Shown: piece after piece, positions 5,570 through 29,318 of the stretch
How positions within the stretch are numbered: position 1 is the first letter of the stretch
Layout of the letters: each line of letters begins with the position of its first letter
Virus record (IMG/VR): IMGVR_UViG_3300032224_001461
Span: 1 to 30,807 of that record
From: a virus
Direction: 5' to 3' (one strand)
Length of the DNA stretch: 30,807 bases
Made by a program: the position numbers and the translations under genes
Notes under the pieces: model-generated
What the model was told of the DNA's origin: nothing
Seen by the model: only the letters and a program-made list of their open reading frames with translations
Database searches by the model: none

Positions 5570-6069
5570 ATCGAGAAGGTCATGAAAATACTGCATTCTT
5601 TACAGGCACAGAAGTAGAACACACACCAGCACTTGGCAAAAAAACATTGTTTGTGGTTGGCGTACAACCCAAAGCTGACATTGCCCGACATATTAACGGA
5701 TGTGAACACATCTACTTTGGTGCCAATCAGAGTTTTCCCAACTATGACACTGATGCTCGTGGTTGGTTAGACTGGGAAAATATGATCCAGCCATTCTTAG
5801 CAGCAGGCTACTTATGCTCATTGGATATTGATGTTCGATGTGTAGAAGGCCTACTAGAATCAGGATTGACTGAACATCACAACTTCATTCCTATGATCTC
5901 TGTGAAACTGCCTTACATCCAACAATTGGGCTACAATGCTGTACTCAAACTGGACGACCGAGACTTTGATGCCACCAACCCCGGCGTTTGGTGTCACAGC
6001 ATACACGACTTACAAAACCGAGGCCACTTCACTGACTGGTCTAAATATACCAAGGACGAAACACTATGA
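5566..6069 (+). CDS. Conserved phage protein, unknown function
   Basis: A 167-residue protein of the kind seen in T4-like phages of aquatic bacteria; I do not know a function. An alternating pattern of hydrophobic strands (LFVVGVQ, HIYFGANQSF, LCSLDIDV, FIPMISVKLP, NAVLKLDD) separated by helices suggests a compact alpha/beta domain of Rossmann or barrel type. Four-base overlaps tie it to the genes on both sides. Its position directly after dpdA and before a T-fold-like protein makes a link to base modification possible, but nothing in the sequence proves it. Confidence 0.7.
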   Translation: MNREGHENTAFFTGTEVEHTPALGKKTLFVVGVQPKADIARHINGCEHIYFGANQSFPNYDTDARGWLDWENMIQPFLAAGYLCSLDIDVRCVEGLLESGLTEHHNFIPMISVKLPYIQQLGYNAVLKLDDRDFDATNPGVWCHSIHDLQNRGHFTDWSKYTKDETL

Positions 6070-6518
6070 ACGAACGCGATCATGCACTGACAGAAACACG
6101 ACAACGTATCAAGGATCGTGCTGTACGCACAATTTTTGTACGGTTCCAAAAAGAAGGCATTCATTGTTATCCGGCAGCAGCCACAGACCCTGCATTGGCC
6201 ACCGGTGATGAGTATGATGTGAGCTTTTTGGGCAGTCCACACAGACACATATTTCACTTTGAAGTGACCATACAAGTATTCCACAACGACCGTGACATTG
6301 AATTCATTCAGTTCAAACGCTGGCTAGAAAATCTCTACGCTGGTGGCACACTTGAACTCAATTACAAGAGTTGTGAAATGATCAGCGATGAACTTTACGA
6401 TCAAATCGCTGCAAGATATCCAGACCGTGCTGTATGGATCAACATATCCGAAGATGGTGAGAACGGCGCTGTGATACAGTACAATCTCACTTATCCTGCT
6501 CAATCAATTATAATCTAA
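6066..6518 (+). CDS. Phage protein, possible T-fold (QueD/FolE superfamily) relative
   Basis: A 150-residue protein with no firm assignment. Its layout parallels QueD/6-pyruvoyl-tetrahydropterin synthase proteins: a His-rich strand (HRHIFHFEVTIQVF, where QueD has HGH followed by a long strand), then an acidic turn and helix (DIEFIQFKRWLENL), then KSCEMISDEL, then a last strand with conserved acid (WINISEDGENG). The catalytic cysteine near the His motif and the exact zinc triad of true QueD are not clear, so it may be an inactive or divergent member. Start ATG 6066 overlaps the previous stop. This resemblance is by eye and uncertain. Confidence 0.55.
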   Translation: MNERDHALTETRQRIKDRAVRTIFVRFQKEGIHCYPAAATDPALATGDEYDVSFLGSPHRHIFHFEVTIQVFHNDRDIEFIQFKRWLENLYAGGTLELNYKSCEMISDELYDQIAARYPDRAVWINISEDGENGAVIQYNLTYPAQSIII

Positions 6519-7645: not shown

Positions 7646-8848
7646 ATGAGAAAATTATTTTACATGGGACTGGAAAGTTACGAAGCCCGCTATACACTAC
7701 AACTGACTGAATGGAATCGTCGTGTGTTTGATCGTCGAGGCCTTGACGTGGTGTATGTGCCTGGCCTGACCTTAGACAACAGTCAAAAGATTGTGGTTGG
7801 TCAGGTGTTAGACGCACACGGACGCAGCTACTTTGGTATGAGTCAGATGATGAATCTAGTTCGTCTCATGCAACAGGGCGAAGTTACCAGTGAAGATGTG
7901 ATCTATTTTGAAGACATGTTCCAACCAGGCATCGAAAGTCTGCCATACATCATGGACCAAGTGCCTGCAGAATTGCGTCCACAGGTATGGGTACGTTGTT
8001 TGGCACAGGCAATTGATCCTGACGACTTTGTGCATGTTTGGGGCATGGCAGGTTGGATGAGCACATACGAACGAATGGTCAATCAATTTGTGACCGGTGT
8101 GTTGGCTACCAACGAAGAAATGGTTGCTCACATGCGTATTGCTGGCTGGACTGCTCCTATCTACAACATCTCTGGTCTTGCATTTGGCAAAGCGGAAGTG
8201 CTGGAACGCATTGGTGGTGCTGAGAACATCCAGCCATTTGGTGCTCGGCCACGGCGTGTGGGTTTTGCAGCCAGATTTGATCAAGAAAAGCAACCGGGCT
8301 TTTTTATGGATCTCATTGACATGTATGGCGAACTCACAAGCGAACCATGTGAGTTTGCTATCTACAGCGGCGGTGAGTTGCGTAGCAACAACCCAGAGTA
8401 CGTGACCCGTGCCAGAGCAATGGAAGCAGCCGGCAAATTGAAAATTTACGACAACATCTCAAAAAATGATTACTACTCTCACCTTAATAATACTCGTGTG
8501 TTGTTTAATTGCGCCCTTCAAGATTGGGTTTCCAACACAGTCAGTGAAGCAGATACTCTTGGCTGTAATGTTTTATACCCTGCTTATAGGTCTTTCCCTG
8601 AGACTTTTTCTAATGACCCTAACAGGCTTTACGTTCCTTGGTCAATAGACGATGCCTACCACAAAATGCAAAATCTCTTGCGTGAGCCACATCACAACAT
8701 GGGCCTGATATCTGATTGGAACAACAGCACAGTGGATCGTGTGGTGGATATATTACAAGGCCAAGGAGAACAATGGAACCGAGCTGGCAATAGATATCGT
8801 GATCATGTGGCTCACGAAAAATATCAAGTGGTAAAGATTGAATCATGA
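7646..8848 (+). CDS. GT-B-type glycosyltransferase
   Basis: A 400-residue protein with a two-Rossmann-domain GT-B architecture. The N-terminal half ends in a hydrophobic strand and helix (VTGVLATNEEMVAHM), typical of the interdomain region. The C-terminal half begins RRVGFAARFDQEKQPGFF, the usual strand-loop-helix where the nucleotide-sugar binding domain starts. It ends with SEADTLGCNVLYP, matching the (S)EA..G...LYP signature of group 1 glycosyltransferases. It would transfer a sugar to an unknown acceptor. ATG 7646 follows an AAAGGA ribosome site. The stop overlaps the epimerase start. Codon use between about 8466 and 8640 differs from the rest of the gene. Confidence 0.75.
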   Translation: MRKLFYMGLESYEARYTLQLTEWNRRVFDRRGLDVVYVPGLTLDNSQKIVVGQVLDAHGRSYFGMSQMMNLVRLMQQGEVTSEDVIYFEDMFQPGIESLPYIMDQVPAELRPQVWVRCLAQAIDPDDFVHVWGMAGWMSTYERMVNQFVTGVLATNEEMVAHMRIAGWTAPIYNISGLAFGKAEVLERIGGAENIQPFGARPRRVGFAARFDQEKQPGFFMDLIDMYGELTSEPCEFAIYSGGELRSNNPEYVTRARAMEAAGKLKIYDNISKNDYYSHLNNTRVLFNCALQDWVSNTVSEADTLGCNVLYPAYRSFPETFSNDPNRLYVPWSIDDAYHKMQNLLREPHHNMGLISDWNNSTVDRVVDILQGQGEQWNRAGNRYRDHVAHEKYQVVKIES

Positions 8849-9792
8849 AAGTAGTGGTCACCGGTTCGGCCGGTTACATTGGTGGGCAAATTGCACTGGC
8901 ATTGAAAGATGCCGGTCACGAAGTCTTGGGTATTGATCGCAGACCGTGTCCGTCACATCTCAAAGAAGTATTTGATCAGTTTGTGCTGGCCGACTTTGAC
9001 AGTGACACAACTGGTAAAAAATTGATACAATTTATTCCCGACGCTATAGTTCATTGTGCCGGTACCAGTCTGGTAGGACCCAGCATTCGATATCCGTCTG
9101 ACTACTATCATAACAATGTGATCAAGACCATCCACATGTTGGATCTTGTGCTGGCTGCTTTGCCCCGAACTAGATTTATCTTCAGTTCAAGTGCAGCAGT
9201 ATATGGTGAGCCTGCCATAACGCCTTGTGCCGAAACGGATCCTTGCAAACCAGTGAGCCCGTACGGTGAAAGCAAGCACATGATTGAACAGGTGTTGGCC
9301 AGTTATCATCAGGCTTATAAACTGGATTATGTGGCATTTCGTTATTTCAATGCATGCGGAGCCGATAGTCAAGGACGTCATGGCAGTGAGCCTGGCGGCA
9401 CACATATCATTTCGCGGGTGTTAGAGAGCATCAGGGACAAAGAAGAATTTGTGCTTAACGGTATCAATTATCCCACCAATGATGGTACCTGTGTGCGGGA
9501 CTATGTGCATGTGGAAGACATTGCCCAAGCACATGTTGCAGCACTAGATGCCAAGGTGCCTGTTGGTGTGTATAATCTTGGTAGCAATCAAGGTGTAAGT
9601 AATTTAGAAATTATTGACGCTGCACAGCGAATCACAAAACAGATTTTGAATTTTAGATCAGGTGACAAACGTGCTGGAGATCCAGCTGTGTTGACCGCAA
9701 GTTCAGATAAATTTAATCAGTACGGTCATTGGCGCAAATACTCAATGGATGATATGATACAACATGCATGGAACTGGTATCAGGAAAAATGA
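8845..9792 (+). CDS. NAD-dependent sugar-nucleotide epimerase (GalE-like)
   Basis: A 315-residue extended short-chain dehydrogenase/reductase. The NAD-binding GSAGYIGG is at residues 7-14, the acid that selects NAD is Asp31 in LGIDRRP, the substrate serine strand is FSSSAAVYG (112-121), and the catalytic Tyr140-x3-Lys144 is in SPYGESK. Length and motifs fit UDP-glucose/UDP-N-acetylglucosamine 4-epimerase or a close relative such as a 4,6-dehydratase. It would supply a nucleotide sugar to the glycosyltransferase just upstream, with which it overlaps by four bases. The exact sugar cannot be told from sequence. Confidence 0.88.
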   Translation: MKVVVTGSAGYIGGQIALALKDAGHEVLGIDRRPCPSHLKEVFDQFVLADFDSDTTGKKLIQFIPDAIVHCAGTSLVGPSIRYPSDYYHNNVIKTIHMLDLVLAALPRTRFIFSSSAAVYGEPAITPCAETDPCKPVSPYGESKHMIEQVLASYHQAYKLDYVAFRYFNACGADSQGRHGSEPGGTHIISRVLESIRDKEEFVLNGINYPTNDGTCVRDYVHVEDIAQAHVAALDAKVPVGVYNLGSNQGVSNLEIIDAAQRITKQILNFRSGDKRAGDPAVLTASSDKFNQYGHWRKYSMDDMIQHAWNWYQEK

Positions 9793-10928
9793 CCTACTCA
9801 GTCTATCAGCATTGGGATCCGTTAAAAGTGTGTGCTGTAGGGCGCAGTTATCCCCCGGAGTTTTATTCTTGGATTACTGTGCCACATGTGAGAAAGTTAT
9901 TTGAAAAAATAGCCATCGAGACTGAAGAAGATTATCAAAATATCATACACAAGTTACAAAGTTTTGGTGTAGAAATCGTTCGCATTGATATCCCCGATGA
10001 TATAGATCAATGCAAACGATATGATGGGCGGCTTATGCCTCCTCCTATGTGCCCTAGAGATCACACAATCATGGTTGGTAATACATTTTACATAAATGAT
10101 GTAAAATCAGCATATGATCAGGTTCGTGATCCTACTTGGCCAGATTGTAATTCTTATCATGATTGGATGTTGTTACCCGAATGGATCCGTGACGAATGTT
10201 TAAAAATTCATAAAATTGGAAATCGTCAATGCTCACTTGATTTTTCTTATAAGTCAATTATTAAACAAGTGCAGTCACAGGGAAATAAAATCATAAAAAC
10301 CAATGATAGTATCAATGGCGCAATGGTCACAAGACTTGGTCGGGATCTATATATTGGCACCAATGATTACGATCAGGATCAAAACGAACTTAAAAAATTT
10401 ATAGATCAAGAATTTACCAACACAAGAAATCACATCATCAATACCGGTGGTCACAGTGATGGAACTTATTGTCCAGTGGCTCTGGGATTGATAATCAGTT
10501 TGTGTGATGTTCCAAACTATTCAGATACTTTTCCTGGCTGGGAAGTAGTTTATCTCCCAGGCCAAAGTTGGGATGCTGTTCGACCGTTTCTGGATCTTAA
10601 AGAAAAAAATCGAGGCAAATGGTGGATACCAGGATTCGAACATGATCAAACGGTGGTTGATGTAGTAGAAACGTGGTTAGATCATTGGACTGGTTACGTA
10701 GAAGAAACTGTATTTGATGTAAACATGTTGATCGTTGACCCTAAAAATGTCCTAGTGTTTAACTACAACAAACAGGTATTTAATGCATTAGATCGATACG
10801 GGATCACTCCACACATAGTTCCATTTCGACATAGATACTTTTGGGATGGTGGTGTACATTGTGTCACTAGCGACCTGCATAGGGAAGGAACTATGCAAGA
10901 CTTTTTTCCAGGAAGAAATAATGTTTGA
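9789..10928 (+). CDS. Amidinotransferase/dimethylarginase-type (pentein-fold) enzyme
   Basis: A 379-residue member of the glycine/inosamine amidinotransferase branch of the pentein fold. The substrate-carboxylate motif CPRDH is at 88-92, the catalytic His/Asp pair is in TGGHSDG (His222, Asp224), and the nucleophilic cysteine is Cys358 in GGVHCVT near the C-terminus, all in the expected order. Such enzymes move an amidino group from arginine to an amine. ATG 9789 overlaps the epimerase stop. The gene is AT-rich relative to its neighbours. Partnership with the adjoining aminotransferase (eight-base overlap) suggests one enzyme makes an amine and the other amidinates it, on a sugar or possibly a deazaguanine; this is inference. 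Confidence 0.82.
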   Translation: MTYSVYQHWDPLKVCAVGRSYPPEFYSWITVPHVRKLFEKIAIETEEDYQNIIHKLQSFGVEIVRIDIPDDIDQCKRYDGRLMPPPMCPRDHTIMVGNTFYINDVKSAYDQVRDPTWPDCNSYHDWMLLPEWIRDECLKIHKIGNRQCSLDFSYKSIIKQVQSQGNKIIKTNDSINGAMVTRLGRDLYIGTNDYDQDQNELKKFIDQEFTNTRNHIINTGGHSDGTYCPVALGLIISLCDVPNYSDTFPGWEVVYLPGQSWDAVRPFLDLKEKNRGKWWIPGFEHDQTVVDVVETWLDHWTGYVEETVFDVNMLIVDPKNVLVFNYNKQVFNALDRYGITPHIVPFRHRYFWDGGVHCVTSDLHREGTMQDFFPGRNNV

Positions 10929-11511
10929 TAAGATATTGGAATTTGAAAAGGCCTTGGCCAAGTACACCGGTGCTCCTTATGCGATCATGACTGATTGCTG
11001 CACACACGCTATTGAGATGTGTCTGCGTTATGATCGAGTACGCGGTCTTAAAATGACTCCTTACACTTATCTCAGCATCCCAATGACCATGCACAAATTG
11101 GGCATTGATTATGTGTACCTGGACGAACCTGAACAAACTTGGACAGGGGAATATAACTTTGTGTATACCAGAGTATGGGACAGTGCCAGACGATTAGAAG
11201 CTGATATGTATCAAGCTGGGCAGATGCAATGTGTGAGTTTTGGACACACAAAGCCTTTACAAATAGGCCATGGCGGTGCTATACTGTTAGATAACAAGCG
11301 AGCTTATGACACAATGATAAAACAACGATATGATGGTCGCGACCTAAATATCATACCCTGGCAGTCACAAAAGACTTTCCGGCTAGGATATCATTACAAG
11401 CCCACCATTGAAGATGCGGTGCGCGGATTAGAATTGCTAGAGCAATACCAATCACAGGCACCTGTGTTTGTACAGTATCCAGATTTGAGAAATATAACCA
11501 TTGAACCATAA
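10921..11511 (+). CDS. Half-size DegT/DnrJ/EryC1-type PLP aminotransferase domain
   Basis: A 196-residue protein matching the large-domain core of DegT-type sugar aminotransferases. The cofactor-binding lysine is Lys111 in SFGHTKPLQIGHGGAIL, the counterpart of the family's S-H-x-x-K...GEGGA motif. An acid at Asp87 (VWDSARR) stands where the PLP ring is contacted. Full-length family members have about 370-400 residues, so the C-terminal small domain is largely missing and intervening segments are short. It may be a minimal enzyme, or an inactive remnant. Start ATG 10921 overlaps the amidinotransferase stop by eight bases; the stop precedes folE by one base. Confidence 0.72.
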   Translation: MFDKILEFEKALAKYTGAPYAIMTDCCTHAIEMCLRYDRVRGLKMTPYTYLSIPMTMHKLGIDYVYLDEPEQTWTGEYNFVYTRVWDSARRLEADMYQAGQMQCVSFGHTKPLQIGHGGAILLDNKRAYDTMIKQRYDGRDLNIIPWQSQKTFRLGYHYKPTIEDAVRGLELLEQYQSQAPVFVQYPDLRNITIEP

Positions 11512-11512
11512 C

Positions 11513-12301
11513 ATGACCAACTTTGTACCTGATCCACTACTGACTCCTCTCGAACAAGAATTTGTGCCAATGGAACAAACATTGTATGTAAAGAAAGCAC
11601 CCGGAGCTGCCGGAAAGCATCTTAGCACTGCATTGCGTGAACGTATGCAAGCAGACAACAAACGCTTCTGGGCCGGAGACAACATCAGTGACTATGTTGC
11701 GGAATCTGATCGAGAACATTTGATCAACGAAGCAACAGAAGCATTTGAACAAGTATTGGACGCATTACTGATCGATCGTGAGAATGATCCCAACTCACGA
11801 GGCACAGCACACCGCTTGGCCAAGATGTACTACAACGAAATAATGGCAGGAAGATATGAACCAGCACCAGACGCAACAGCATTTCCAAATGATTCAGCGG
11901 AACGTTACGAAGGCATGCTTGTGGTTAGAAGTGAACTACGCAGTATGTGTAGCCATCATCACCAGCCTGTATCTGGGGTTGCTTATATTGGGATTATCGC
12001 CGCAGAAAAGCTCATTGGTTTGTCTAAGTACACTCGTATTGCTCAGTGGTGCGCTCGTCGTGGTACTTTACAGGAGGAACTGTGCAACGACATCGCAAGA
12101 GAAATCATGAAAGCCACTGATGCCAAAGACGTGGCAGTATATGTACAAGCGGTGCATGGTTGCTGTGAAAATCGTGGCATCATGGCACATTCAAGTCTCA
12201 CACAGACCACTGTGCTCAAAGGCGCATTCCAGACCGATCAAAGCACCAAGAAAGAGTTCTTTGACAACATCAAACTACAACAAGAGTTTGCACCAAGATA
12301 A
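11513..12301 (+). CDS. folE: GTP cyclohydrolase I
   Basis: Converts GTP to dihydroneopterin triphosphate, the first step of both folate and 7-deazaguanine synthesis. The 262-residue product shows the zinc-binding SMCSHHHQP (Cys146 and the following His residues), IGLSKYTRI, and HGCCENRG (third zinc ligand Cys217 or Cys218), all family signatures. About 60 residues precede the usual core as an extension. ATG 11513 is preferred over an upstream TTG at 11501 because the TTG lies inside the preceding gene. In this window folE most likely feeds QueD and QueE and so the DpdA DNA modification. A break with a new promoter follows. Confidence 0.93.
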   Translation: MTNFVPDPLLTPLEQEFVPMEQTLYVKKAPGAAGKHLSTALRERMQADNKRFWAGDNISDYVAESDREHLINEATEAFEQVLDALLIDRENDPNSRGTAHRLAKMYYNEIMAGRYEPAPDATAFPNDSAERYEGMLVVRSELRSMCSHHHQPVSGVAYIGIIAAEKLIGLSKYTRIAQWCARRGTLQEELCNDIAREIMKATDAKDVAVYVQAVHGCCENRGIMAHSSLTQTTVLKGAFQTDQSTKKEFFDNIKLQQEFAPR

Positions 12302-12391: not shown

Positions 12392-13693
12392 ATGAAACAG
12401 ATTTTTATTTTGTTAACTATACTGTTATCCGCGTGTGGTGGCGGCAGTGACGGAACATCAAGCAATAACTCAATTCCTGGTCCAGCACCGATGCCTAGCC
12501 AAACTGCTATGATCCAAACTGCTGTGGTCAATGCTGCCATCAAGGTGATGGATTATCAAAATGAAAATAGTGTGAGCCATTCATTTAATGTTGCAGTGGC
12601 TGACTTGAACGGAGATGGGTTAGAGGATGTGGTGGTCACTGGATGGGCCGTGATGCCTGCCGGTTGGTCTGGTGTTCGTAACGCCAACGTGCCTGTAAAA
12701 ATTCTAATACAACAAGAAAATGGTTCTCTAATAGATCGCACGGATGCACTGCTGGGATCAAATAATATGATTGCTGGCGCACAACGAATTCTCATTGAGG
12801 ATTTTGATAATGATGGCCGACCGGATATTTTTGTTGGTGGATTTCAGGATGTGCCCAGCCGGTCGGCTGCCAGTGTGATGTTTTGGAACAATGGATCAAC
12901 ATGGGCACGGCAGGACTTTACAGAATCTGTATGGGCACATGCAGCATGTGCAGGAGATTTGCGAGGCACTGGCCGCAAAGATATTGTGATGGGCGCAAGT
13001 GGAACCAGCCCCAACACCATTTTAGTAAACAACGGGTCAAGGTCATTCACATTAAACAGATCGTTGACCAGCACACCCATCAGCAGCGCCGGCACATGCA
13101 GCATTGTCAAAGATTCCGCTACCGGAAACATTGGCATTATCACAGCCAATGTTGTTAACGAAGGGAATTACAGTGTTTATGTGAGAGTGTTTGATTCCAA
13201 CATGAATTATATTACCACTCGTGCCTTACCCGGCAGTGAAGAAAAAGACAATATGAATCTCACTCACGACATAGTTAGTGTGGTGATTGTTGACATAGAT
13301 AAAGATGGTGATCAGGATGTGATATTGCTTGACAATGGCAATCATAGAGTCACAACACCCAATGGCAAATTCACGGTGTTGGTCAATCAGGGCAATTTCA
13401 ACTTGGTTGATCAAACCAGCAAATATTTTCCTTCACAAACAAATGATTTTGCTTTTGCAATGTATTCTCGTGTGATTGATGTGGGCTCAAAAATATCTCT
13501 GATCGTTGGCGATGGTAAGGCTGCGCTATCAGCAATATTATGGAAGCAAGATACTGTGCCATTTAGTAAAACATCAACTGATTTATCAATGCAATATTTG
13601 GCATTGTATAAAACCCGTAACGATAGTTACAAAGTGCTAGTGTACGAGAATCTCATCCTTGGTCAGTATACGTTTTATACAAAAGGTTTATAA
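12392..13693 (+). CDS. Exported lipoprotein with FG-GAP/VCBS-like repeats
   Basis: A 433-residue protein beginning with a lipoprotein signal peptide: a Lys near the start, a hydrophobic run, and lipobox LLSAC with Cys15 as the lipidated residue, then a Gly/Ser linker. The body carries calcium-loop repeats of the integrin/FG-GAP kind, DLNGDGLED (71-79), DFDNDGRPD (137-145) and DIDKDGDQD (about 300-308), each followed by a short beta strand, so a beta-propeller is expected. It would be anchored in a host membrane facing the periplasm or outside. Such a gene is unusual in a lytic replication region; superinfection exclusion, receptor masking or envelope alteration are candidate roles. It has its own promoter. 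Confidence 0.85.
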   Translation: MKQIFILLTILLSACGGGSDGTSSNNSIPGPAPMPSQTAMIQTAVVNAAIKVMDYQNENSVSHSFNVAVADLNGDGLEDVVVTGWAVMPAGWSGVRNANVPVKILIQQENGSLIDRTDALLGSNNMIAGAQRILIEDFDNDGRPDIFVGGFQDVPSRSAASVMFWNNGSTWARQDFTESVWAHAACAGDLRGTGRKDIVMGASGTSPNTILVNNGSRSFTLNRSLTSTPISSAGTCSIVKDSATGNIGIITANVVNEGNYSVYVRVFDSNMNYITTRALPGSEEKDNMNLTHDIVSVVIVDIDKDGDQDVILLDNGNHRVTTPNGKFTVLVNQGNFNLVDQTSKYFPSQTNDFAFAMYSRVIDVGSKISLIVGDGKAALSAILWKQDTVPFSKTSTDLSMQYLALYKTRNDSYKVLVYENLILGQYTFYTKGL

Positions 13694-14085
13694 TGGATTT
13701 AGCACAAGCACAGCAAGCAGGCATAGCGCCATGGGATCAACATCTCAAAGACCTCAGTGATTTTCACGTCACTGTGTTTCGAGATCGTTATCCAGTAACT
13801 CCAGGCCATTTGTTGTTTGTGCCAAACTATAATACCCTCACCGTTATCAATCATGCGTTTGAAAGTGCATTACTATATGGTGAAAGAATGGTAAGACAGG
13901 GAGAATACGATGGATACAATATTGGATTCAATTCGGGCACTGCTGCTGGCCAAACAGTAATGTATCCACATGTTCATTTGATTCCTCGTCGGCATGGCGA
14001 TAGTGAAAACCCCATTGGTGGTGTTCGGGGTGTGATTCCCGGCCAGGCTGACTACAAAGCTGCTGGCTATCAACCGTCAGCATAA
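13693..14085 (+). CDS. HIT-family nucleotide hydrolase
   Basis: A 130-residue histidine-triad protein. The conserved block GQTVMYPHVHLIPRR near residues 95-110 corresponds to the Q-x-V-x-H-x-H-x-H motif with the first His replaced by Tyr; the two later His residues, which include the catalytic one, are kept. Upstream DRYPVTPGHLLFVPN is the usual HIT N-terminal strand pair (YP..PGH.LV.P). Relatives cleave dinucleoside polyphosphates or nucleotide-monophosphate adducts such as Ap4A. It overlaps the lipoprotein stop by one base (TAATG), so it is probably read from the same promoter. Confidence 0.85.
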   Translation: MDLAQAQQAGIAPWDQHLKDLSDFHVTVFRDRYPVTPGHLLFVPNYNTLTVINHAFESALLYGERMVRQGEYDGYNIGFNSGTAAGQTVMYPHVHLIPRRHGDSENPIGGVRGVIPGQADYKAAGYQPSA

Positions 14086-14166: not shown

Positions 14167-14649
14167 ATGGCACAAAAATACTTTTCAACCAAGACTTACA
14201 GGCAAATTGGCCCTGTGGCATATCGTCAATGGCGTGCTCAAAGTCACTGCAATCTCATCCACGGATATGCAATGAGCTTTCACTTTGAGTTTGAAGCAGA
14301 TACTTTAGATGCACGTAATTGGGTCACTGACTTCGGCGGACTCAAACCACTCAAAGAAAAACTAGAAGAATGGTTTGATCACACCTTGCTAGTGGCACAA
14401 GACGATCCCATGCGTGAACACCTGCTGGAACTGGGACGACTCAAACTGGCCAAGATCACCGAAGTGGAAAAGACCGGCTGCGAAGGCATTGCCGACTTCT
14501 TGTACGAATACATCAACACCATATTCTTGCCCAACTGTGGCAGCGAAGAAGCCCGACGTGTTTGGTGTACTCGAGTAGAAGTGCGCGAAACAGATTCAAA
14601 CATGGCAGGCCGTCAGGGACACAGAGAGGACCATGAATTCAATGACTGA
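14167..14649 (+). CDS. queD: 6-carboxytetrahydropterin synthase (QueD) family, HGY variant
   Basis: Second step of 7-deazaguanine synthesis: dihydroneopterin triphosphate to 6-carboxytetrahydropterin. In the 160-residue protein the catalytic cysteine is Cys28 in SHCNLIHGY, followed by the long strand FHFEFEAD, DFGGLK (55-60), the FDHTLL pair (70-75), the GCEGIAD helix start, and the closing REThr acid (RET at 140-142). Compared with E. coli QueD, two zinc histidines appear as Tyr (Tyr19 for the AAH histidine and Tyr34 in HGY for HGH), while His32 is kept. I believe this HGY form recurs in phage QueD-like proteins. ATG has an AGGAG site. It ends by overlapping the next gene by 17 bases. Confidence 0.8.
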   Translation: MAQKYFSTKTYRQIGPVAYRQWRAQSHCNLIHGYAMSFHFEFEADTLDARNWVTDFGGLKPLKEKLEEWFDHTLLVAQDDPMREHLLELGRLKLAKITEVEKTGCEGIADFLYEYINTIFLPNCGSEEARRVWCTRVEVRETDSNMAGRQGHREDHEFND

Positions 14650-15502
14650 ACGCAAGTATAACATAGCAATGTTGTTGGCTACCAGAGGCCGTACTACCAG
14701 TCTGGAACGTAGCATACGCAGTCTCGTAGAGTTGGCAGATGATCCTAAAAAATTGCAACTGATGTTTGCGTTCGATCGGGACGATGAAAGAGGCACAAGT
14801 TTTTTCAAAGAAACATTACAGCCTTGGCTGGATTCTCAATCAGTGACCTACACGGCCATGCGGTTTGATCGACTGGGTTATGTGAATCTGCACAAATACA
14901 ACAATGCATTGGCCAAGGTGTCTGACAGCAAATGGTTGATGATCTGGAACGATGATGCTGTGATGCAAACCAAAGGCTGGGATAATGTGATCATGAGCCA
15001 TACCAGTGAGCACCTCCAGCTGTTGAGTTTCCGCACACACAACATGCATCCTTACAGCATTTTTCCTATTATTCCACGGGTATGGTTTGATCTGTTGGGA
15101 TACATTTCTCCACACAGCTCACAGGATGCTTGGTTAAGTCAGCAGGCATACCTGCTGGACATATACAAACGTATTCCGGCAGATGTGCTGCATGATCGTT
15201 TTGATCTTACTGGCAACAACGGAGATGCCACCTTCTTGGACAGACATATCTTGGAAGGCAAACCACTGGATCCAAATGATTTTCATAGTTTACCAAATCT
15301 ACAGATTCGGCAAGGCGACTGTGCCAAGCTGGCCATGTACATGCAACAGCACGGGCAAAGCACTGAATATTTTGAAAATGTGTTTCGTGGCACCCAGGAA
15401 CCCTGGCAGCGACTGCTGGAAAACGACCCCAACAATCAAATGAAGCAATTTAACAATCCACACTTTGGTAAGTCGGCCGCTCCTGAATCAATAAGTACAT
15501 GA
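14633..15502 (+). CDS. GT-A glycosyltransferase-like protein, copy 1
   Basis: A 289-residue protein with a family 2-like GT-A fold. It starts with a strand and nucleotide-binding loop (IAMLLATRGRTTSLERSI), and has the divalent-metal/diphosphate motif in MIWNDDAVM near residue 105. The downstream block HNMHPYSIFPIIPRVW and QDAWLSQQAYLLDI is shared almost residue for residue with the protein at 17527, so the two are paralogs. It overlaps queD, and its stop overlaps the radical SAM start. An alternative start is ATG 14642. The acceptor is unknown: DNA base, host glycan or virion protein are all possible. Confidence 0.75.
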   Translation: MNSMTERKYNIAMLLATRGRTTSLERSIRSLVELADDPKKLQLMFAFDRDDERGTSFFKETLQPWLDSQSVTYTAMRFDRLGYVNLHKYNNALAKVSDSKWLMIWNDDAVMQTKGWDNVIMSHTSEHLQLLSFRTHNMHPYSIFPIIPRVWFDLLGYISPHSSQDAWLSQQAYLLDIYKRIPADVLHDRFDLTGNNGDATFLDRHILEGKPLDPNDFHSLPNLQIRQGDCAKLAMYMQQHGQSTEYFENVFRGTQEPWQRLLENDPNNQMKQFNNPHFGKSAAPESIST

Positions 15503-17499
15503 TGAAACATAAAATTGCCTGGGTCCAACCCAATTTCCAACAAGGTCCCAAAGAGTTCAATGCGTACTACCTGCCCTATTCGGCTGGTGTGGTATGGAGT
15601 TACAGTCTAGCTGACCCAGAGATCCGCGAACGATTTGAAGCCACTGATTGGATCTGGCGCAGAGATGCCATAGAACCGTTGGCACAGCGTCTAGCACAAA
15701 ATCAAATTGTGACTTTCAGCACCTATGTATGGAATCATCGGTACAATTATGCACTGGCCAAACGGATCAAAGAAATAAATCCTGCTGTGTTGACTGTGTT
15801 TGGCGGCCCCGAAGTTGCAATTACCGACCCCGACTTGTTTGTAAAAGAACCTTTTATAGATCTTGTGATCTGCTACGAAGGAGAAATAACTTTCAAAAGT
15901 GTGCTACAGCATTTTGAAATCAAAGATTGGGAAAATGTATCTGGTGTGTTGATCAATAGAAATGGTCAAGCAGTGAAGACGCAAGATGCCAAACGTATTG
16001 AATCACTAGAAGAAGTGGCCAGTCCATACTTGGCAGGCATCTTTGACCAGATGATCGCCGATCATCCTGACGTGACATGGCAAGGTACTTTGGAAACCAA
16101 TCGTGGGTGTCCATTTGCTTGTACATTTTGTGACTGGGGTAGCTTGACCTACAACAAGGTTAAGAAGTTTGAACTAGAACGTGTGTTTGCCGAACTTGAA
16201 TGGATGGCCCAACGCAACTTTGACTGGATCTCAATTACCGATGCCAACTTTGGCATGTTCCCCGAACGTGACGGTATGATTGCAGACAAGATCATTGAGA
16301 TGCAAGAAAAGTACGGATCTCCGAGAACATTCAGTGTGGCCTGGGCCAAGAATCAAAAGAAAGAAGTCATAGACATTGTGAAGAAATTGTTGGACGCACG
16401 TGGCTTCAATCAAGGCCTGACACTGAGTGTACAAAGTCTAGATTTGGATGTACTGGAAAACATTCGCCGTAAAAACATGGAAATGAACAAGTTAGAAGAA
16501 GTGTTTGAGCTGTGCGACCAGCGCAACATTCCTGCATACACAGAACTCATACTTGGCTTGCCTGGTGAGTCACTGGAGTCCTGGAAGAAAAACTTCTATG
16601 CGCTATATGACCTGAATCAGCACACTGGTATCACTGTGTTCCAGGCACAGTTGTTGGAAAACGCCGAGATGAACTTGTTGCAAAAGAAACTGTTCAAGAT
16701 CACCAGTCAACCGGTTACTGATTATTTTGCCGGCAGTTACAGTGTGGAACACATTGAAGAAAGCATTGATGTCATAACAGGAACCAAAGACATGCCCACA
16801 CCTGTGATGTTGGATGCACAAATCTTTTCGTGGTTCCAGACCACATTCCATATCAATGGATTTGCCACTCTGGTTGCTAGATTCATCAACAAGTACAAAG
16901 GCCTAAGTTATAACGACTACTATGAAGATTTATTTGCGTACTTTATGACCAACGATTGGTTAAAAAAGGAAGAAGCCGAAGCAAGGCAATATTTCTCCAA
17001 CTGGATGACCACTGGTCGAATCAACCATCCCAAAATTGGGGTGGAGATACACGGTTGGAATATCATTCATAGAACCAGTATGAACATGCATCAAGAAGAT
17101 CGTGTGGATGAACTGTATGATTTCTTGGAAATATTTTTACAACGCTACGACTTGCCCAAAGATTTGTTGGCCAGTTTGATGAAGCTGCAAAGAGGTTACT
17201 ACATCAAATACAACGACAGAAATCAATATCCAATGAATCTTGAATTGGACTATAATATTTGGGACTACTTGAGCTTCAATCGGCCATTGGAGAAAACTGC
17301 TACAACATATCATCTAGACTTTCCAGAAGACAAAACCATGAGCCGCAATCGATTTTTGGAATTGTTTTATTTTGCAAGACGCAGAAATTTTGGCAAAGCC
17401 ACAGTGGATTTGGTAGGGGTTGAGAACCTTAAAGGTACACATCGCGGTGCTGGTGCTGCCAAAGCACAAGGTACTTTTTCTATTAAGAAAACGTATTAA
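15499..17499 (+). CDS. Large radical SAM enzyme with B12-binding-like N-terminus
   Basis: A 666-residue protein. The radical SAM cluster motif CxxxCxxC is RGCPFACTFCDWG (Cys204, Cys208, Cys211). Residues 1-150 resemble the Rossmann-like cobalamin-binding domain that precedes the barrel in BchE-type enzymes (strand-turn TVFGGPEVAITDP at 99-111), but the cobalamin-ligating DxHxxG is not present, so B12 may bind base-off or not at all. The barrel continues with TDANFGMF, LSVQSLD and ELILGLPGES. About 250 residues follow the barrel with no motif I recognise. It sits between two glycosyltransferase paralogs; methylation or C-C bond chemistry on an unactivated carbon is the family's usual work. Confidence 0.85.
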   Translation: MMKHKIAWVQPNFQQGPKEFNAYYLPYSAGVVWSYSLADPEIRERFEATDWIWRRDAIEPLAQRLAQNQIVTFSTYVWNHRYNYALAKRIKEINPAVLTVFGGPEVAITDPDLFVKEPFIDLVICYEGEITFKSVLQHFEIKDWENVSGVLINRNGQAVKTQDAKRIESLEEVASPYLAGIFDQMIADHPDVTWQGTLETNRGCPFACTFCDWGSLTYNKVKKFELERVFAELEWMAQRNFDWISITDANFGMFPERDGMIADKIIEMQEKYGSPRTFSVAWAKNQKKEVIDIVKKLLDARGFNQGLTLSVQSLDLDVLENIRRKNMEMNKLEEVFELCDQRNIPAYTELILGLPGESLESWKKNFYALYDLNQHTGITVFQAQLLENAEMNLLQKKLFKITSQPVTDYFAGSYSVEHIEESIDVITGTKDMPTPVMLDAQIFSWFQTTFHINGFATLVARFINKYKGLSYNDYYEDLFAYFMTNDWLKKEEAEARQYFSNWMTTGRINHPKIGVEIHGWNIIHRTSMNMHQEDRVDELYDFLEIFLQRYDLPKDLLASLMKLQRGYYIKYNDRNQYPMNLELDYNIWDYLSFNRPLEKTATTYHLDFPEDKTMSRNRFLELFYFARRRNFGKATVDLVGVENLKGTHRGAGAAKAQGTFSIKKTY

Positions 17500-17526
17500 C
17501 CGTATAAAATAATTGTGAGAGAATTT

Positions 17527-18372
17527 ATGGATACTGAATTCAAGTATGATATCAGTGTGCTGTTGCCCACGCGAGGTCGCACCGATGCACTGAGACGAAG
17601 TGTACAATCACTGTACGACAATGTGGCTGACCCAAAGTCAATATACCTGATGCTGGGGTTTGATCAGGACGATGCTGTAGGCACAGACTATTTTTATGCC
17701 AGTTTGAAACCCTGGTTGGATTCTATCAAAGCCAACTACACCGCAATAAAATTTGAACCCATGGGATATATTCGACTGAACGAATATGTGAATGCCATGG
17801 CACGCATGGTCAAATCTCGTTGGTATATCATTTGGAATGATGATGCTGTCATGCAAACGCCTGCATGGGATAGTGAAATCATGAAACATGACGGCGAATT
17901 TAAACTGTTGGCATTCTGCACACACAATTTGCATCCTTACAGTATTTTTCCCATTGTGCCACACAAGTGGATAGAACTGCTGGGATATCTTTGCCCGCAT
18001 CAAATTTCTGACGCATGGTTGAGTCAACAGGCCTATATGCTAGATATCTTTGAACGCATACCCGTTGATGTGTTGCATGAACGTTATGATCTCACTGGTA
18101 AAAATCAAGACGCCACCTTCAACAACAGACCCATGCTGGAAGGCAATCCCAATGATCCGAGAGATTTTTTACACATGGATGTGATAGAATTACGATTTAA
18201 TGACTGTAAGAAAATCTCTAGGTACATGGAAAGTCTAGGCATGAGCACAACACATTTTAAAAATGTTCTCAATGGCACACAAGATCCCTGGGAAAAACTC
18301 AAGATCAATGATGTAAATCATCAACAATCACAATGGAGCATGGAGATCAAACGATCTATCATGGGAGGATAA
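17527..18372 (+). CDS. GT-A glycosyltransferase-like protein, copy 2
   Basis: A 281-residue paralog of the protein at 14633, alike along its whole length: ISVLLPTRGRTDALRRSV at the N-terminus, the metal motif IWNDDAVM near residue 103, then HPYSIFPIVPHKW and DAWLSQQAYMLDIFERIP. ATG 17527 is chosen over GTG 17515 because GAGAG lies just upstream of it. DNA identity between copies looks only moderate, so the duplication is not recent. A 27-base gap separates it from the radical SAM gene; the methyltransferase start follows after three bases. Confidence 0.75.
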   Translation: MDTEFKYDISVLLPTRGRTDALRRSVQSLYDNVADPKSIYLMLGFDQDDAVGTDYFYASLKPWLDSIKANYTAIKFEPMGYIRLNEYVNAMARMVKSRWYIIWNDDAVMQTPAWDSEIMKHDGEFKLLAFCTHNLHPYSIFPIVPHKWIELLGYLCPHQISDAWLSQQAYMLDIFERIPVDVLHERYDLTGKNQDATFNNRPMLEGNPNDPRDFLHMDVIELRFNDCKKISRYMESLGMSTTHFKNVLNGTQDPWEKLKINDVNHQQSQWSMEIKRSIMGG

Positions 18373-18375
18373 TCA

Positions 18376-19158
18376 ATGAATGATCAAACACTTGAACAGC
18401 GTATCATACGCTACTGGGACAATCAACCTTGTAATATTTTACATGGCACCAGCGAGGTAGGCACATTAGAATTTTATCAGCAGGTGTCAGAACGCAGATA
18501 TCGTGTGGAATCGCACATAAGAGAATTTGCCGGATTTCATCTTTGGCAAGGCAAACGTGTGTTGGAGATTGGCTGTGGCATAGGAACAGATGCTGCTGAA
18601 TTTGCGCGATATGGCGCAGATTATACTGCTATTGACATCAGCCCACGAACCATAGAGCTGGCTCAACAGCGATTCAAAGTTGAAGGGCTGGATGGAAACT
18701 TTGTGTGCGGCGATGCCAGTGATGCGGCAGTATACCAAGACTTGGGGCAGTTTGATTTGGTTTACAGTTGCGGAGTCATGCATCACTTTCCACGTATTGA
18801 TCACATGATACAAAATGCATATGATGCTCTAGTGCCCCAGGGCGAATTTAGATTTTTGGTATATGCCAAGAATAGCTGGAAGTACAGCATGATACGCAAA
18901 GGATTAGATCAATTTGAAGCACAAAATGGTTGCCCATATGCCAAGGCCTACACCAATGAAGAAGTGTATGCGCTGTTGGGCGACCGTTTTCATATTGAGC
19001 GTCTGCGTCAGGCACATTGTTTCATGTACGATGTGCCGGCTTACAAACAAGGTAGATATGAATTAGAACCTTGGTTTGAGGCCATGCCAGCTGACATGCG
19101 AGATGCCATCAAAGAATATCTTGGCTGGCACCTCTTGGTCAAAGCTCGTAAAACATGA
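18376..19158 (+). CDS. Class I SAM-dependent methyltransferase
   Basis: A 260-residue protein with the full Rossmann methyltransferase signature: motif I VLEIGCGIGTD at 62-72, acid at the end of strand 2 (AIDISP, 85-90), FVCGDASDA for motif II, and FDLVYSCGVMHHF followed by LVPQGEFRFLVYAK for motifs III and post-III. This layout is typical of small-molecule and sugar methyltransferases of the UbiE/SmtA type. The acceptor is not evident. It lies among glycosyltransferase, radical SAM and SGNH genes and overlaps the next start by four bases. Confidence 0.85.
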   Translation: MNDQTLEQRIIRYWDNQPCNILHGTSEVGTLEFYQQVSERRYRVESHIREFAGFHLWQGKRVLEIGCGIGTDAAEFARYGADYTAIDISPRTIELAQQRFKVEGLDGNFVCGDASDAAVYQDLGQFDLVYSCGVMHHFPRIDHMIQNAYDALVPQGEFRFLVYAKNSWKYSMIRKGLDQFEAQNGCPYAKAYTNEEVYALLGDRFHIERLRQAHCFMYDVPAYKQGRYELEPWFEAMPADMRDAIKEYLGWHLLVKARKT

Positions 19159-19862
19159 GACGGCTGTTTGCATTTGGTTGCAGTTTTACCAACTATCGTT
19201 GGCCAACGTGGGTGGATTGTTTAGAGCCTGAGTTTGATCACACACAGAATTGGGGGCAGGCCGGTGGCGGTAATCACTACATATTCAATTCAGTAATGGA
19301 ATGCGATCAACGCAATACATTTGGTCCAGGCGACACTGTGGTTGTGTGTTGGACCAGTATAGATCGTGAAGATAGATACATAGACAATCGTTGGCATACT
19401 CCGGGAAACGCATACTTTGCCAAAACAGTATATCATCCCGAATACATTCGTTCACACATTGATGAGCGAGGATTTTTAATTCGAGATCTAGCATACATCA
19501 AGGCTGTTAAAGCATTGTTAGAATCACGCCCCGGAGTTGACTGGAAATTTTTAAGCATGGTTGAACTCATGGCAAGACCCAATGACAACGATGATGTGAG
19601 TCTGCACCGTGACGTCATGCGGCTTTACAGTGACGTGTTAGATTGCATCCTGCCCGGATATGACAAAACGGTATTCAAAAACAACTGGCCCAAGCCTGGC
19701 CCTGATCCGCACCCCAGCCCCGAAGAACATTTGGCTTACTTAGATGCAGTGTTACCGGGCTGGGTGACAAAACTCGAAACTCGTGTTAAAATGCACAAAG
19801 TCAGTATCAATCTAAATAAAGATCCAAACTACTCAGGAATGACCAAGGTAACAAGATTATGA
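19155..19862 (+). CDS. SGNH-hydrolase-like protein
   Basis: A 235-residue protein with the block I motif LFAFGCSFT (family GDS, here GCS) and block II NWGQAGGGN containing the conserved Gly/Asn. The last block reads DPHPSPEEHLAYLD, matching the D-x-H-P pair that ends the SGNH fold. Such proteins are common in phages of aquatic bacteria, usually without known substrate; the family removes acyl groups from sugars or lipids. Start ATG 19155 and stop both overlap neighbours by four bases. Confidence 0.7.
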   Translation: MRRLFAFGCSFTNYRWPTWVDCLEPEFDHTQNWGQAGGGNHYIFNSVMECDQRNTFGPGDTVVVCWTSIDREDRYIDNRWHTPGNAYFAKTVYHPEYIRSHIDERGFLIRDLAYIKAVKALLESRPGVDWKFLSMVELMARPNDNDDVSLHRDVMRLYSDVLDCILPGYDKTVFKNNWPKPGPDPHPSPEEHLAYLDAVLPGWVTKLETRVKMHKVSINLNKDPNYSGMTKVTRL

Positions 19863-20725
19863 GCAAAATTAAAATAGCAGAACTATTCTACAGCATACAA
19901 GGTGAAGGCCGCTACATGGGTGTACCCAGTGTGTTCTTACGCACATTTGGTTGCAACTTCAAATGTGCAGGCTTCGGTATGCCACGTGGGGAACTAAGCA
20001 CAGAGGTAGAGGCAATTGCCATACAAGATGCACAAATGCCTTTTGGTGCATATAAAGATTTGCCATTAGTTAGCACAGGTTGTGACAGTTACGCAAGTTG
20101 GGATCCACGTTTCAAAGACTACAGCCCCGTGCTGACTACAGATGCAATTGTAGAACGCATTATAGAAATACTTCCGCACGGTGAGTGGCGTGATGAGCAT
20201 CTGGTTATCACCGGAGGCGAACCATTGCTGGGATGGCAGAAGCAGTATCCGGACTTGTTGGATCATCCCAAGATGAAAGGTCTTAAAGAAATTACCTTTG
20301 AGACAAATGGCACTCAGAAACTAACAACTGAATTCAAACAATACCTGCATACATGGAAATATCACAGTGATGATATTGACTTCTGGAGAGACGTTACATT
20401 TAGTGTGAGTGCCAAATTACCATGCAGCGGAGAGCTGTGGTCAGATGCCATCAAACCCGAACTTGTATGTGAGTATGAAGAATATGGCACAGCATATTTG
20501 AAGTTTGTTATTGCTACAGAAGAAGACTTTGTGGATGCCGAACGTGCCATTGTTGAATATCGTAAGGCTGGATTCTTAGGACACGTTTATCTAATGCCAG
20601 TGGGCGGTGTAGAAAGTGTCTATGCTATGAACAATCGTAATGTAGCATTGTTGGCAATGAAACATGGATTACGATACAGTGACCGACTACAAGTTCCATT
20701 GTTTAAAAACGAATGGGGCACCTGA
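19859..20725 (+). CDS. queE: 7-carboxy-7-deazaguanine synthase (QueE), radical SAM
   Basis: Turns 6-carboxytetrahydropterin into 7-carboxy-7-deazaguanine. The 288-residue protein begins with the QueE hallmark FYSIQGEGRYMGVPSVFLR (10-28). Cluster cysteines are Cys32 and Cys36 (GCNFKC) and probably Cys75 (GCDSYASWD), so the third ligand is separated by 38 residues instead of the usual few; QueE enzymes vary here but this is long. ITGGEPLL (117-124) is the SAM-binding GGE motif, and ETNGTQ follows. With folE and queD in the window it completes the path to CDG. No queC was found nearby. Confidence 0.9.
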   Translation: MSKIKIAELFYSIQGEGRYMGVPSVFLRTFGCNFKCAGFGMPRGELSTEVEAIAIQDAQMPFGAYKDLPLVSTGCDSYASWDPRFKDYSPVLTTDAIVERIIEILPHGEWRDEHLVITGGEPLLGWQKQYPDLLDHPKMKGLKEITFETNGTQKLTTEFKQYLHTWKYHSDDIDFWRDVTFSVSAKLPCSGELWSDAIKPELVCEYEEYGTAYLKFVIATEEDFVDAERAIVEYRKAGFLGHVYLMPVGGVESVYAMNNRNVALLAMKHGLRYSDRLQVPLFKNEWGT

Positions 20726-21612: not shown

Positions 21613-22085
21613 TCTTCAATCACATCAAACAACTCAAAGCCGAAGGCAAAAGAATTGGCATTACGTTCTCAACTTTTGACATGCTGCATGCTGGGCATAT
21701 TGCCATGCTGAGCGAAGCCAAGAATCACTGTGACTACTTGATTGCAGGCTTGCAAACTGATCCCACTATAGATAGACCAGACACCAAAAATCATCCTGTG
21801 CAGAGCGTGGTAGAACGACAAATACAATTGGCTGCATGTCGTTATGTGGACGAAGTTGTGGTGTATCAAACCGAACAAGATCTCATTGATCTATTGTTGA
21901 TCCTGCCCGTGGATGTGCGTATCTTGGGTGTGGAATATGAAAACAACAATTTCACTGGTCGAGATGAAGGTGCTCATCGAGGTATTGAACTGGTATTCAA
22001 CGGGCGCGATCATTCTTTCAGCAGCAGCAGTCTACGCCGACGTGTGGTTGCAGCCGAGAGTCACAAGGTGCTTGCACAAAAATGA
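21609..22085 (+). CDS. Cytidylyltransferase-like nucleotidyltransferase
   Basis: A 158-residue protein of the HxGH nucleotidyltransferase superfamily, closest in form to glycerol-3-phosphate cytidylyltransferase (TagD). Visible motifs are GITFSTFDMLHAGH (17-30) with the nucleotide-binding HAGH, the Arg after HPVQSVVERQ, and the C-terminal SFSSSSLRRR, equal to the family's (I)SSTxxR signature. It would activate a phosphorylated alcohol or sugar by CMP or AMP transfer. It may serve the glycan genes upstream. Overlaps both neighbours. Confidence 0.82.
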   Translation: MIFNHIKQLKAEGKRIGITFSTFDMLHAGHIAMLSEAKNHCDYLIAGLQTDPTIDRPDTKNHPVQSVVERQIQLAACRYVDEVVVYQTEQDLIDLLLILPVDVRILGVEYENNNFTGRDEGAHRGIELVFNGRDHSFSSSSLRRRVVAAESHKVLAQK

Positions 22086-22813
22086 TACTGTACATCAATG
22101 GCGACAGCCACGCAGCTGGTGCCGAAGCTGAAGTATCGTATGGCTGGGCCGAAGATGATGGTCGCTTCTGGGGTCAAGGTCGGCATCCACATCCTGACAA
22201 CGAAGCTGTGAGTTTTGGTGCTGAACTGGCTCGGTCGCTAGGCTGCAAGCGAATCAATCAAAGTCAAGCCGGCGGTAGTAATGCTCGAATTTATCGAACC
22301 ACTGTTGAATGGGTGCAATCCAATCCTGATTTACTGGCAGACACATTCATGCTGATACAATGGAGCACCTGGGAAAGAGAAGAATGGTTTCATGATGGCA
22401 TATGGTACCAGGTGAATGCATCGGGGGTGGATCATGTGCCAGCTGAACTGGAACAGCGATATCGTCAATATATCATTGACATAGACTATGATGCTTGCAC
22501 CAGAGCCGGCCATGACCTAGCATGGCAATTGCATCAGTATCTGGGCACAAAAGGTGTAAAGCATCTGTTTTTCAATGGCAACAGCACATTCAGTGATTTG
22601 GCTCAAGATCCCAAAGTTTGGAATCACTGTTATTTAGATCCATACTGTGCCCAATCAAGCTACGATCGTGTGCTCAAAAACAACGGATTTGACTATGTAA
22701 ATCCAAAATCTTATCATTTTGGCAAACAAGCCCATTGCTTTTGGGGCAAATATCTGTTACAATACATCAAACAGCACCAACTATTGGACCTTGATGAAAT
22801 ACCTACTGATTGA
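22082..22813 (+). CDS. SGNH-hydrolase-like protein
   Basis: A 243-residue protein. The N-terminal block is YINGDSHAAG (Ser9 as nucleophile), the second block INQSQAGGSNAR holds the conserved Gly and Asn, and the C-terminal region YHFGKQAHCFWGKYLL matches the His-containing last block with Trp/Lys. It is a second SGNH-like gene unlike the one at 19155 in detail. Likely an esterase or deacetylase; target unknown. Overlaps the exonuclease start by 20 bases. Confidence 0.7.
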   Translation: MILYINGDSHAAGAEAEVSYGWAEDDGRFWGQGRHPHPDNEAVSFGAELARSLGCKRINQSQAGGSNARIYRTTVEWVQSNPDLLADTFMLIQWSTWEREEWFHDGIWYQVNASGVDHVPAELEQRYRQYIIDIDYDACTRAGHDLAWQLHQYLGTKGVKHLFFNGNSTFSDLAQDPKVWNHCYLDPYCAQSSYDRVLKNNGFDYVNPKSYHFGKQAHCFWGKYLLQYIKQHQLLDLDEIPTD

Positions 22814-28369: not shown

Positions 28370-28777
28370 ATGATTGACTGTATAATTTTAGGCGATAGCA
28401 TTGCTGTAGGTACACATCAGTTCAGACCCGAATGTGTAGCTCGTGCTCGCGGTGGTATCAACAGTTGGCAATGGCGCAAAGATTATCTAGAACATGATCA
28501 AGGTAACAATCTTGTGGCCGAAACTGTGATAATCAGTTTGGGATCCAATGATCACCAGGGTGTAAAAACTCTAGAAGAAATTTCAAGGATACGTTTAGCA
28601 GTCAAGGCCAAACGAGTGTTTTGGATCTTGCCCGCAATCAAGCCCGACGTACAAGCCCGTGTGCGAGAAGTTGCTGCCGGCTTTGGAGATACTGTTTTAG
28701 AAATCAACAGATTACAACCTGATGGTATTCATCCCAGTTGGGCAGGCTACAAAAACATTGCCGAAAGAACAAAATAA
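28370..28777 (+). CDS. SGNH/GDSL hydrolase
   Basis: A 135-residue compact SGNH hydrolase with all blocks: IILGDSIAVG (Ser10 nucleophile), ARGGINSW (Gly), VIISLGSNDH (Asn), and DGIHPSWAGY near residue 118 with the catalytic Asp/His. Small phage members of this family can deacetylate polysaccharides or peptidoglycan. AAAGGACA lies before ATG 28370. TTTATAATA at 28338-28346 could be a -10 element but no -35 is seen. The stop overlaps the next ATG (TAATG). Confidence 0.8.
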   Translation: MIDCIILGDSIAVGTHQFRPECVARARGGINSWQWRKDYLEHDQGNNLVAETVIISLGSNDHQGVKTLEEISRIRLAVKAKRVFWILPAIKPDVQARVREVAAGFGDTVLEINRLQPDGIHPSWAGYKNIAERTK

Positions 28778-29267: not shown

Positions 29268-29296
29268 TTGACATGTATAGTAAATATCTGTACAAT
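29268..29296 (+). promoter_or_regulatory. Consensus sigma70 promoter for rubrerythrin
   Basis: TTGACA (29268-29273), 17 bases, TACAAT (29291-29296). The ribosome site AAAGGAAG and ATG 29319 follow, giving a short leader. Confidence 0.88.
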
Positions 29297-29318
29297 GATA
29301 TTTTACAGAAAGGAAGTT

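Follow-up and report, generated by a model that had tools for sequence, protein, structure and literature searches.

Gene content of the window

The window, i.e., the whole stretch of DNA that was analysed, is a 30.8-kb IMG/VR virus record, and the genes of interest are all located on its + strand. The relevant features are the following:

88-1203, + strand: DNA polymerase, C-terminal part
2063-2905, + strand: putative sliding clamp (phrog_12062; a homolog is annotated as clamp in phage Phosso)
3246-4805, + strand: putative divergent TGT/DpdA-like transglycosylase of an unannotated family (motifs; AF2 model with archaeosine TGT as top Foldseek match)
6066-6518, + strand: small conserved partner of QueC-less deazaguanine loci (phrog_17812)
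7646-8848, + strand: GT-B-like glycosyltransferase (GT), of a family adjoining dpdA/folE in other phages
8845-9792, + strand: nucleotide-sugar epimerase (SDR; PF01370, E 1.1e-55; YGESK and TGSAGYIG motifs visible)
9789-10928 (alternative start 9768), + strand: AGAT/StrB1-type amidinotransferase, optional cassette member
9781-10920, + strand: insert of exactly 1140 bp compared with loci L083, L081, and L093, whose epimerase/DegT junction is empty
10921-11511, + strand: short DegT-type PLP aminotransferase, 196 aa (Pfam PF01041, E 3.5e-14; K111 and D87 kept; no small C-terminal domain)
11501-12301, + strand: FolE, GTP cyclohydrolase I (PF01227, E 1.5e-40)
13693-14085, + strand: HIT-domain protein, conserved in the cassette
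14167-14649, + strand: QueD
14633-15502, + strand: glycosyltransferase-like protein (phrog_14945)
15499-17499, + strand: B12-binding radical SAM protein, variable cassette member
17515-18372, + strand: glycosyltransferase-like protein (phrog_14945)
18376-19158, + strand: SAM methyltransferase
19859-20725, + strand: QueE-like radical SAM protein (phrog_2076, E 8.5e-49)

The earlier note had described an amidinotransferase gene and a short DegT gene beside folE, and both reading frames are indeed open at these coordinates, with folE next. Between folE and the HIT gene, positions 12392-13693 encode an FG-GAP repeat protein with a lipoprotein-like start, which is rare in relatives. SGNH/GDSL-like proteins, recognised by reading and with Pfam support only for the one at 28370, are encoded at positions 19155-19862, 22082-22813, and 28370-28777, and similar proteins fill slots of related cassettes. 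A rubrerythrin/ferritin-like protein is found at positions 29268-29765 (PF02915, E 7.8e-17).

Deazaguanine genes and the sugar genes that accompany them

The DpdA-like protein (519 aa) has no Pfam or PHROG match. It carries the TGT-like motifs DSGGFQ, GW(S/A)MGG, FLGT, and SFDCASP, which are conserved in 16 relatives. Its AF2 model is of moderate confidence (pLDDT 73; TM 0.35), and the top Foldseek matches of this model are archaeosine TGT (E 5.9e-5) and QTRT2, both with probability 1.00; no fold other than the TGT type was retrieved below E 0.01. A PDB sequence search gave no match, either with the single sequence or with the profile. As the profile also failed to align with 9g DpdA in hhalign, we named the protein TGT/DpdA-like. 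The modelled fold places it in the TGT superfamily as a probable DpdA-like transglycosylase. Its gene is located downstream of the polymerase and clamp-like genes, which is the place occupied by dpdA in phage 9g.

FolE, QueD, and QueE of the 7-deazaguanine pathway are present in the window. QueC is absent from it, and none was found above the cut-off in 20 records of the window lineage, some of which are fragments. A phage lacking QueC could carry a 7-carboxy base, glycosylation not being mentioned in that context (Hutinet et al. 2019, PMC6884629). We saw no QueF/QueC route that would lead to an aminomethyl base. Later than the 7-carboxy proposal, a carboxy-deazaguanine decarboxylase (DpdL) has reportedly been named in QueC-less phages. 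In the GT-bearing phages examined, the small protein family encoded at positions 6066-6518 occurs with folE/dpdA, and we regard it as a candidate deazaguanine enzyme. In Cellulophaga phage phiST, too, a member of this family is encoded close to folE (about 0.6 kb away). Other arrangements include that of Vibrio phage 2.275 (L252:11905-15797), in which the DpdA-like gene is followed by an amidoligase-like protein and QueF, and a phosphoribosyltransferase gene adjoining queE in BUCT-ZZ01 and Paride (L250:7093-7554 and L251:13955-14389).

The GT family follows the deazaguanine genes beyond the window lineage. A search with its profile retrieved genes adjoining dpdA or folE, both in phages outside the profile (Phosso, ACP17, and X1) and in phages that were part of it (BUCT-ZZ01 and Paride). 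The GT thus adjoins dpdA/folE in five other phages (BUCT-ZZ01, Paride/PA5oct, Phosso, ACP17, and X1); the 6066-6518 family accompanies it in all five, and QueC was found in none of them above the cut-off. Conversely, the four dpdA phages without the GT (9g, Vibrio 2.275, pf16, and Moby) all have QueC. QueC is present in 0/6 GT-positive lineages versus 4/4 GT-negative phages (Fisher p about 0.005, for a hand-picked sample), while RHph_I1_18 has neither GT nor QueC. This exclusivity suggests a route via 7-carboxy- or plain 7-deazaguanine, which would then be glycosylated. More distant GT homologs (24%) in PhiXhv phages are not near dpdA, so only the closer GT family tracks the deazaguanine genes. 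In Xanthomonas phage PhiXhv-15 (L263:3747-7833), GlmS-like, PIG-L-type deacetylase, and GT genes are side by side, possibly a further amino-sugar line.

Cassettes were counted at loci chosen by the DpdA-like gene, not by DegT or the amidinotransferase, and only loci reaching 7.5 kb downstream were considered (n=30). GT and epimerase are present in 30/30 of these cassettes, FolE in 28/30, and DegT in 27/30, while the amidinotransferase is found in only 3/30. Among larger records (n=46), all 27 with a DpdA-like gene have a DegT relative. DegT is a core member of the cassette and the amidinotransferase an optional one. The co-occurrence with dpdA that the earlier note had asked about is thus seen for DegT but hardly for the amidinotransferase. 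The scenario in which the two genes would be found only with glycan genes and never with dpdA does not hold, as a TGT/DpdA-like gene is located 5 kb upstream in the window and occurs with DegT in most relatives.

These counts bear on the guanidinylated deazaguanine that the earlier note had thought conceivable. The genes for a deazaguanine base (dpdA-like, folE, queD, and queE) are indeed in the window. However, guanidinylation of aminomethyl-7-deazaguanine by the amidinotransferase itself appears extremely improbable, given the lack of QueC in the lineage, the lack of a visible QueF, and the absence of the enzyme from 27/30 dpdA cassettes and from ten other phages examined for deazaguanine genes. 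The other option of that note, a guanidinylated sugar made with the upstream epimerase and glycosyltransferase, is better supported. As the sugar genes share one conserved cassette with dpdA/folE/queD/queE, the sugar and deazaguanine options need not exclude each other.

The same amino- or guanidino-sugar could nevertheless be destined for a glycan of the virion or of the host envelope, with dpdA sharing the locus by position only. We consider this destination doubtful, yet deserving of attention, as proteins of the 2OG oxygenase-like, SGNH-like, radical SAM, and exostosin-like GT types occupy the cassette slots (sequence reading and Pfam), and the glycan islands of isolate S-SCSM2R include relatives of both DegT and the amidinotransferase in the absence of this dpdA. 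In G017, the sole DegT relative (38%) is located about 120 kb from the dpdA cassette, in a second cluster comprising DegT, 2OG oxygenase-like, GT, radical SAM, and amidinotransferase genes. This cluster and the S-SCSM2R islands make a glycan role conceivable. In contrast, GT, epimerase, and DegT persist between dpdA and folE/queD/queE despite a heavy turnover of insertions, and in five other phages the GT family likewise goes with dpdA/folE, QueC being excluded in our sample. Two points speak against the pathway reading: retention of these three genes could also result from linkage within one phage lineage, and the other GT-positive phages have neither DegT nor the amidinotransferase. In the G017 cassette itself, the gene between epimerase and FolE encodes, in place of DegT, an aminotransferase that is class I/II-like (PF00155, E 5e-4, at the cut-off); genes for a sugar C-methyltransferase and a hexapeptide acyltransferase are also present in this cassette. 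G010 carries a full-length DegT/RfbH-type enzyme and TPP enzymes. These extra genes look like nucleotide-sugar tailoring genes.

The amidinotransferase and its place beside DegT

Numbering of the amidinotransferase from the start at 9789 gives exactly H222, D224, and C358, the residues previously described as an intact catalytic set. All three are invariant in 38/38 aligned relatives, as is D91 of the PRD motif. The catalytic Cys and His of AGAT (C407 and H303) correspond to C358 and H222 in all 38 rows. In the alignment, N176 takes the place of D254, the Asp of the AGAT triad; in 37/38 rows this position is N, P, H, G, Q, or T, and D occurs only in one diverged paralog. The catalytic residues are therefore intact as far as H222, D224, and C358 are concerned, but the triad Asp is not conserved in this viral family. 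The positions matching R322 and S354/S355 of AGAT are changed as well, so the pocket is remodelled.

The amidinotransferase profile matches StrB1, AGAT, HsvA, and SxtG with E-values of 1e-21 to 1e-28. The AF2 model has a pLDDT of 86, and its top seven Foldseek matches are AGAT, SxtG, HsvA, and StrB1 structures (E about 1e-16 to 1e-18). The gene product belongs to the AGAT/StrB1-type family, well beyond chance. As the triad Asp is replaced, we classify it as AGAT-like rather than as a proven amidinotransferase, and the Asn at the D254 position makes amidinotransferase activity less than certain. The changes at the D254, R322, and S354/S355 positions would also fit a guanidine hydrolase or a catalytically altered homolog; this is quite improbable, since no relative departs from the Cys, the His, or the acidic residues of the HxD and PRD motifs, and since the Foldseek E-values of amidinotransferases are better than those of deiminases by some seven orders of magnitude.

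A segment of the protein, DPxWPDxxxxxxFxxLPxxIxxEC (window 10101-10223, residues about 105-145), is also found at the C-terminus of unrelated phage proteins (L070:2644-3828 and L036:2865-4109); this segment of ~40 residues is rare. The literature search returned no paper on phage amidinotransferases of this kind; among the papers searched, one names DUF6875, in an unrelated pathway, and none names DUF6614 or DpdL. In the search for a bacterial source of the enzyme, only two MAG contigs were found, one of which (L254) reads as phage, with PhoH- and ThyX-like genes, so there is no cellular context to learn from.

The neighbouring DegT protein was previously described as half-size, and this is borne out. 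At 196 aa, it falls short of the full-length two-domain architecture (about 360-440 aa): its similarity to solved DegT enzymes is confined to their large domain, with a portion of the middle missing, and there is no C-terminal domain. The PLP residues K111 and D87 are invariant in 19/19 relatives and, together with the family match, place it in the DegT/DnrJ/EryC1/StrS family.

Most relatives of the amidinotransferase are found elsewhere, in a module with DUF6875-like (weak, E 0.07), ATE_C-like (E 0.002), and DUF6614 proteins beside a T4-like baseplate gene, and this module has no sugar genes. An example comprising DUF6875-like, ATE_C-like GNAT, amidinotransferase, and DUF6614 genes is located at L004:9073-11480, with others in L010, L013, L023, and further loci. 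Large genomes have up to about six paralogs, as in G013 and G041 (records of 345 and 342 kb; loci L054 and L159). The enzyme thus also serves functions independent of DegT.

With several copies per genome, most of them at other loci, the amidinotransferase is ill suited to a plain count of co-occurrence with DegT; this measure was dropped, and slot statistics and trees were used instead. In about 100 deduplicated cassettes, the amidinotransferase is present in 12, 11 times in the epimerase/DegT slot and once in the GT/epimerase slot. None is present in five other slots, which together contain 194 of the 268 inserted genes counted. Seeding with the amidinotransferase biases the number of such cassettes seen, not the slot used. 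On the epimerase tree, the 11 amidinotransferase cassettes need 11 changes, at least 8 of which are forced by well-supported branches; on the amidinotransferase tree, the slot label needs 7 changes, at least 6 of them forced. These are counts of changes, which on their own do not distinguish gain from loss; we inferred gain, since cassettes devoid of the amidinotransferase greatly outnumber those with it. For 7 gains out of 8 in the epimerase/DegT slot, a rough binomial gives 3e-6, on the assumption, only approximately valid, that these inserts spread over the slots in proportion to other inserts.

In the cassettes closest to that of the window (L083, L081, and L093), the epimerase gene runs directly into DegT, and the window differs by the insert at 9781-10920. 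The closest relatives of the inserted gene are in L002 and then L003, the latter not being in such a cassette. At the empty sites, epimerase overlaps DegT in the same way as the genes of the window overlap, so gene overlap is not evidence of coupling and was ruled out as a sign of it. The proposal that an amine is made and then receives an amidino group, originally drawn from this overlap, keeps its order of steps but changes its basis: repeated independent insertion at one slot is stronger support than overlapping genes for a link between DegT and the amidinotransferase.

The amidinotransferase could alternatively be a mobile gene of the separate small-molecule module described above, unrelated to DegT and landed here by chance. 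The prevalence of its relatives in that module, the paralog numbers, and the presence of the whole DUF6875-like/ATE_C-like/DUF6614 module in the slot of L007 and L008 are in line with such an origin. Yet the gene was gained repeatedly in the same slot and never or almost never in the other cassette slots, and 10 of the 11 slot copies came without companion genes, which makes a chance landing unlikely.

Proposed pathway and comparison with known systems

Based on these observations, we tentatively read the locus as a QueC-less 7-deazaguanine DNA-modification cassette with a sugar line, in which the amidinotransferase may be an optional guanidino-sugar tailoring enzyme. The deazaguanine part would comprise polymerase, clamp, DpdA-like TGT, FolE, QueD, and QueE, interleaved with a nucleotide-sugar line. 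In this line, the epimerase would act on a nucleotide sugar and the mini DegT would place an amine on it. The amidinotransferase would use arginine or another guanidine compound as amidino donor and turn this amine into a guanidino group, yielding a guanidino sugar, and the glycosyltransferase would move the sugar to its acceptor, most likely the deazaguanine base in DNA. Whether the amidinotransferase uses the amine made by DegT appears evenly balanced, and if a sugar is made, the evidence leans slightly towards its ending on DNA. On the whole, it is rather unlikely that the DNA of these phages contains 7-deazaguanine bearing a guanidino-sugar, i.e., a hypermodified base that would be bulky and positively charged and would be the product of a DpdA-like enzyme, a dedicated GT, a mini DegT, and the optional amidinotransferase.

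Known phage deazaguanines have small C7 substituents, and we know of no description of glycosylated 7-deazaguanine in DNA. Should it be confirmed, such a base would represent a novel type of hypermodification of phage DNA. The slot beside DegT looks like an exchange site for sugar-tailoring enzymes, which would let phages vary their DNA decoration against host nucleases. Moreover, the GT/QueC exclusivity in the sample predicts glycosylated 7-deazaguanine in the culturable phages Paride, PA5oct, ACP17, X1, and BUCT-ZZ01.

With AGAT, StrB1, SxtG, and HsvA, the enzyme of the window has in common the fold, the Cys-His pair, and the HxD and PRD acidic residues. It differs from them by the loss of the triad Asp (AGAT D254), by changed donor and acceptor pocket residues, and by an identity of about 20% or less. 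The 7-deazaguanine DNA modification of phages 9g, CAjan, and nt-1 (PMC6884629) resembles the present locus in that FolE, QueD, and QueE are encoded together with a TGT-type protein next to polymerase and clamp. In contrast, the window has no QueC or Gat-QueC and instead has a GT, an epimerase, and an aminotransferase, and its DpdA-like protein has diverged beyond alignment with 9g DpdA. Glucosylated hydroxymethylcytosine in T4 differs in its base and GT family; as there, a phage GT would here put a sugar on a modified base, in the proposed pathway.

In streptomycin biosynthesis, the substrate of StrB1 is an aminocyclitol produced by a DegT-family aminotransferase. Unlike the streptidine (StsC-StrB1) system, the present genes belong to a phage cassette linked to dpdA/folE, with a mini DegT devoid of the small domain and no cyclitol genes seen. 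The logic proposed here would nevertheless be the same as that of streptidine: a DegT-type enzyme aminates a sugar-like ring, which then receives an amidino group.
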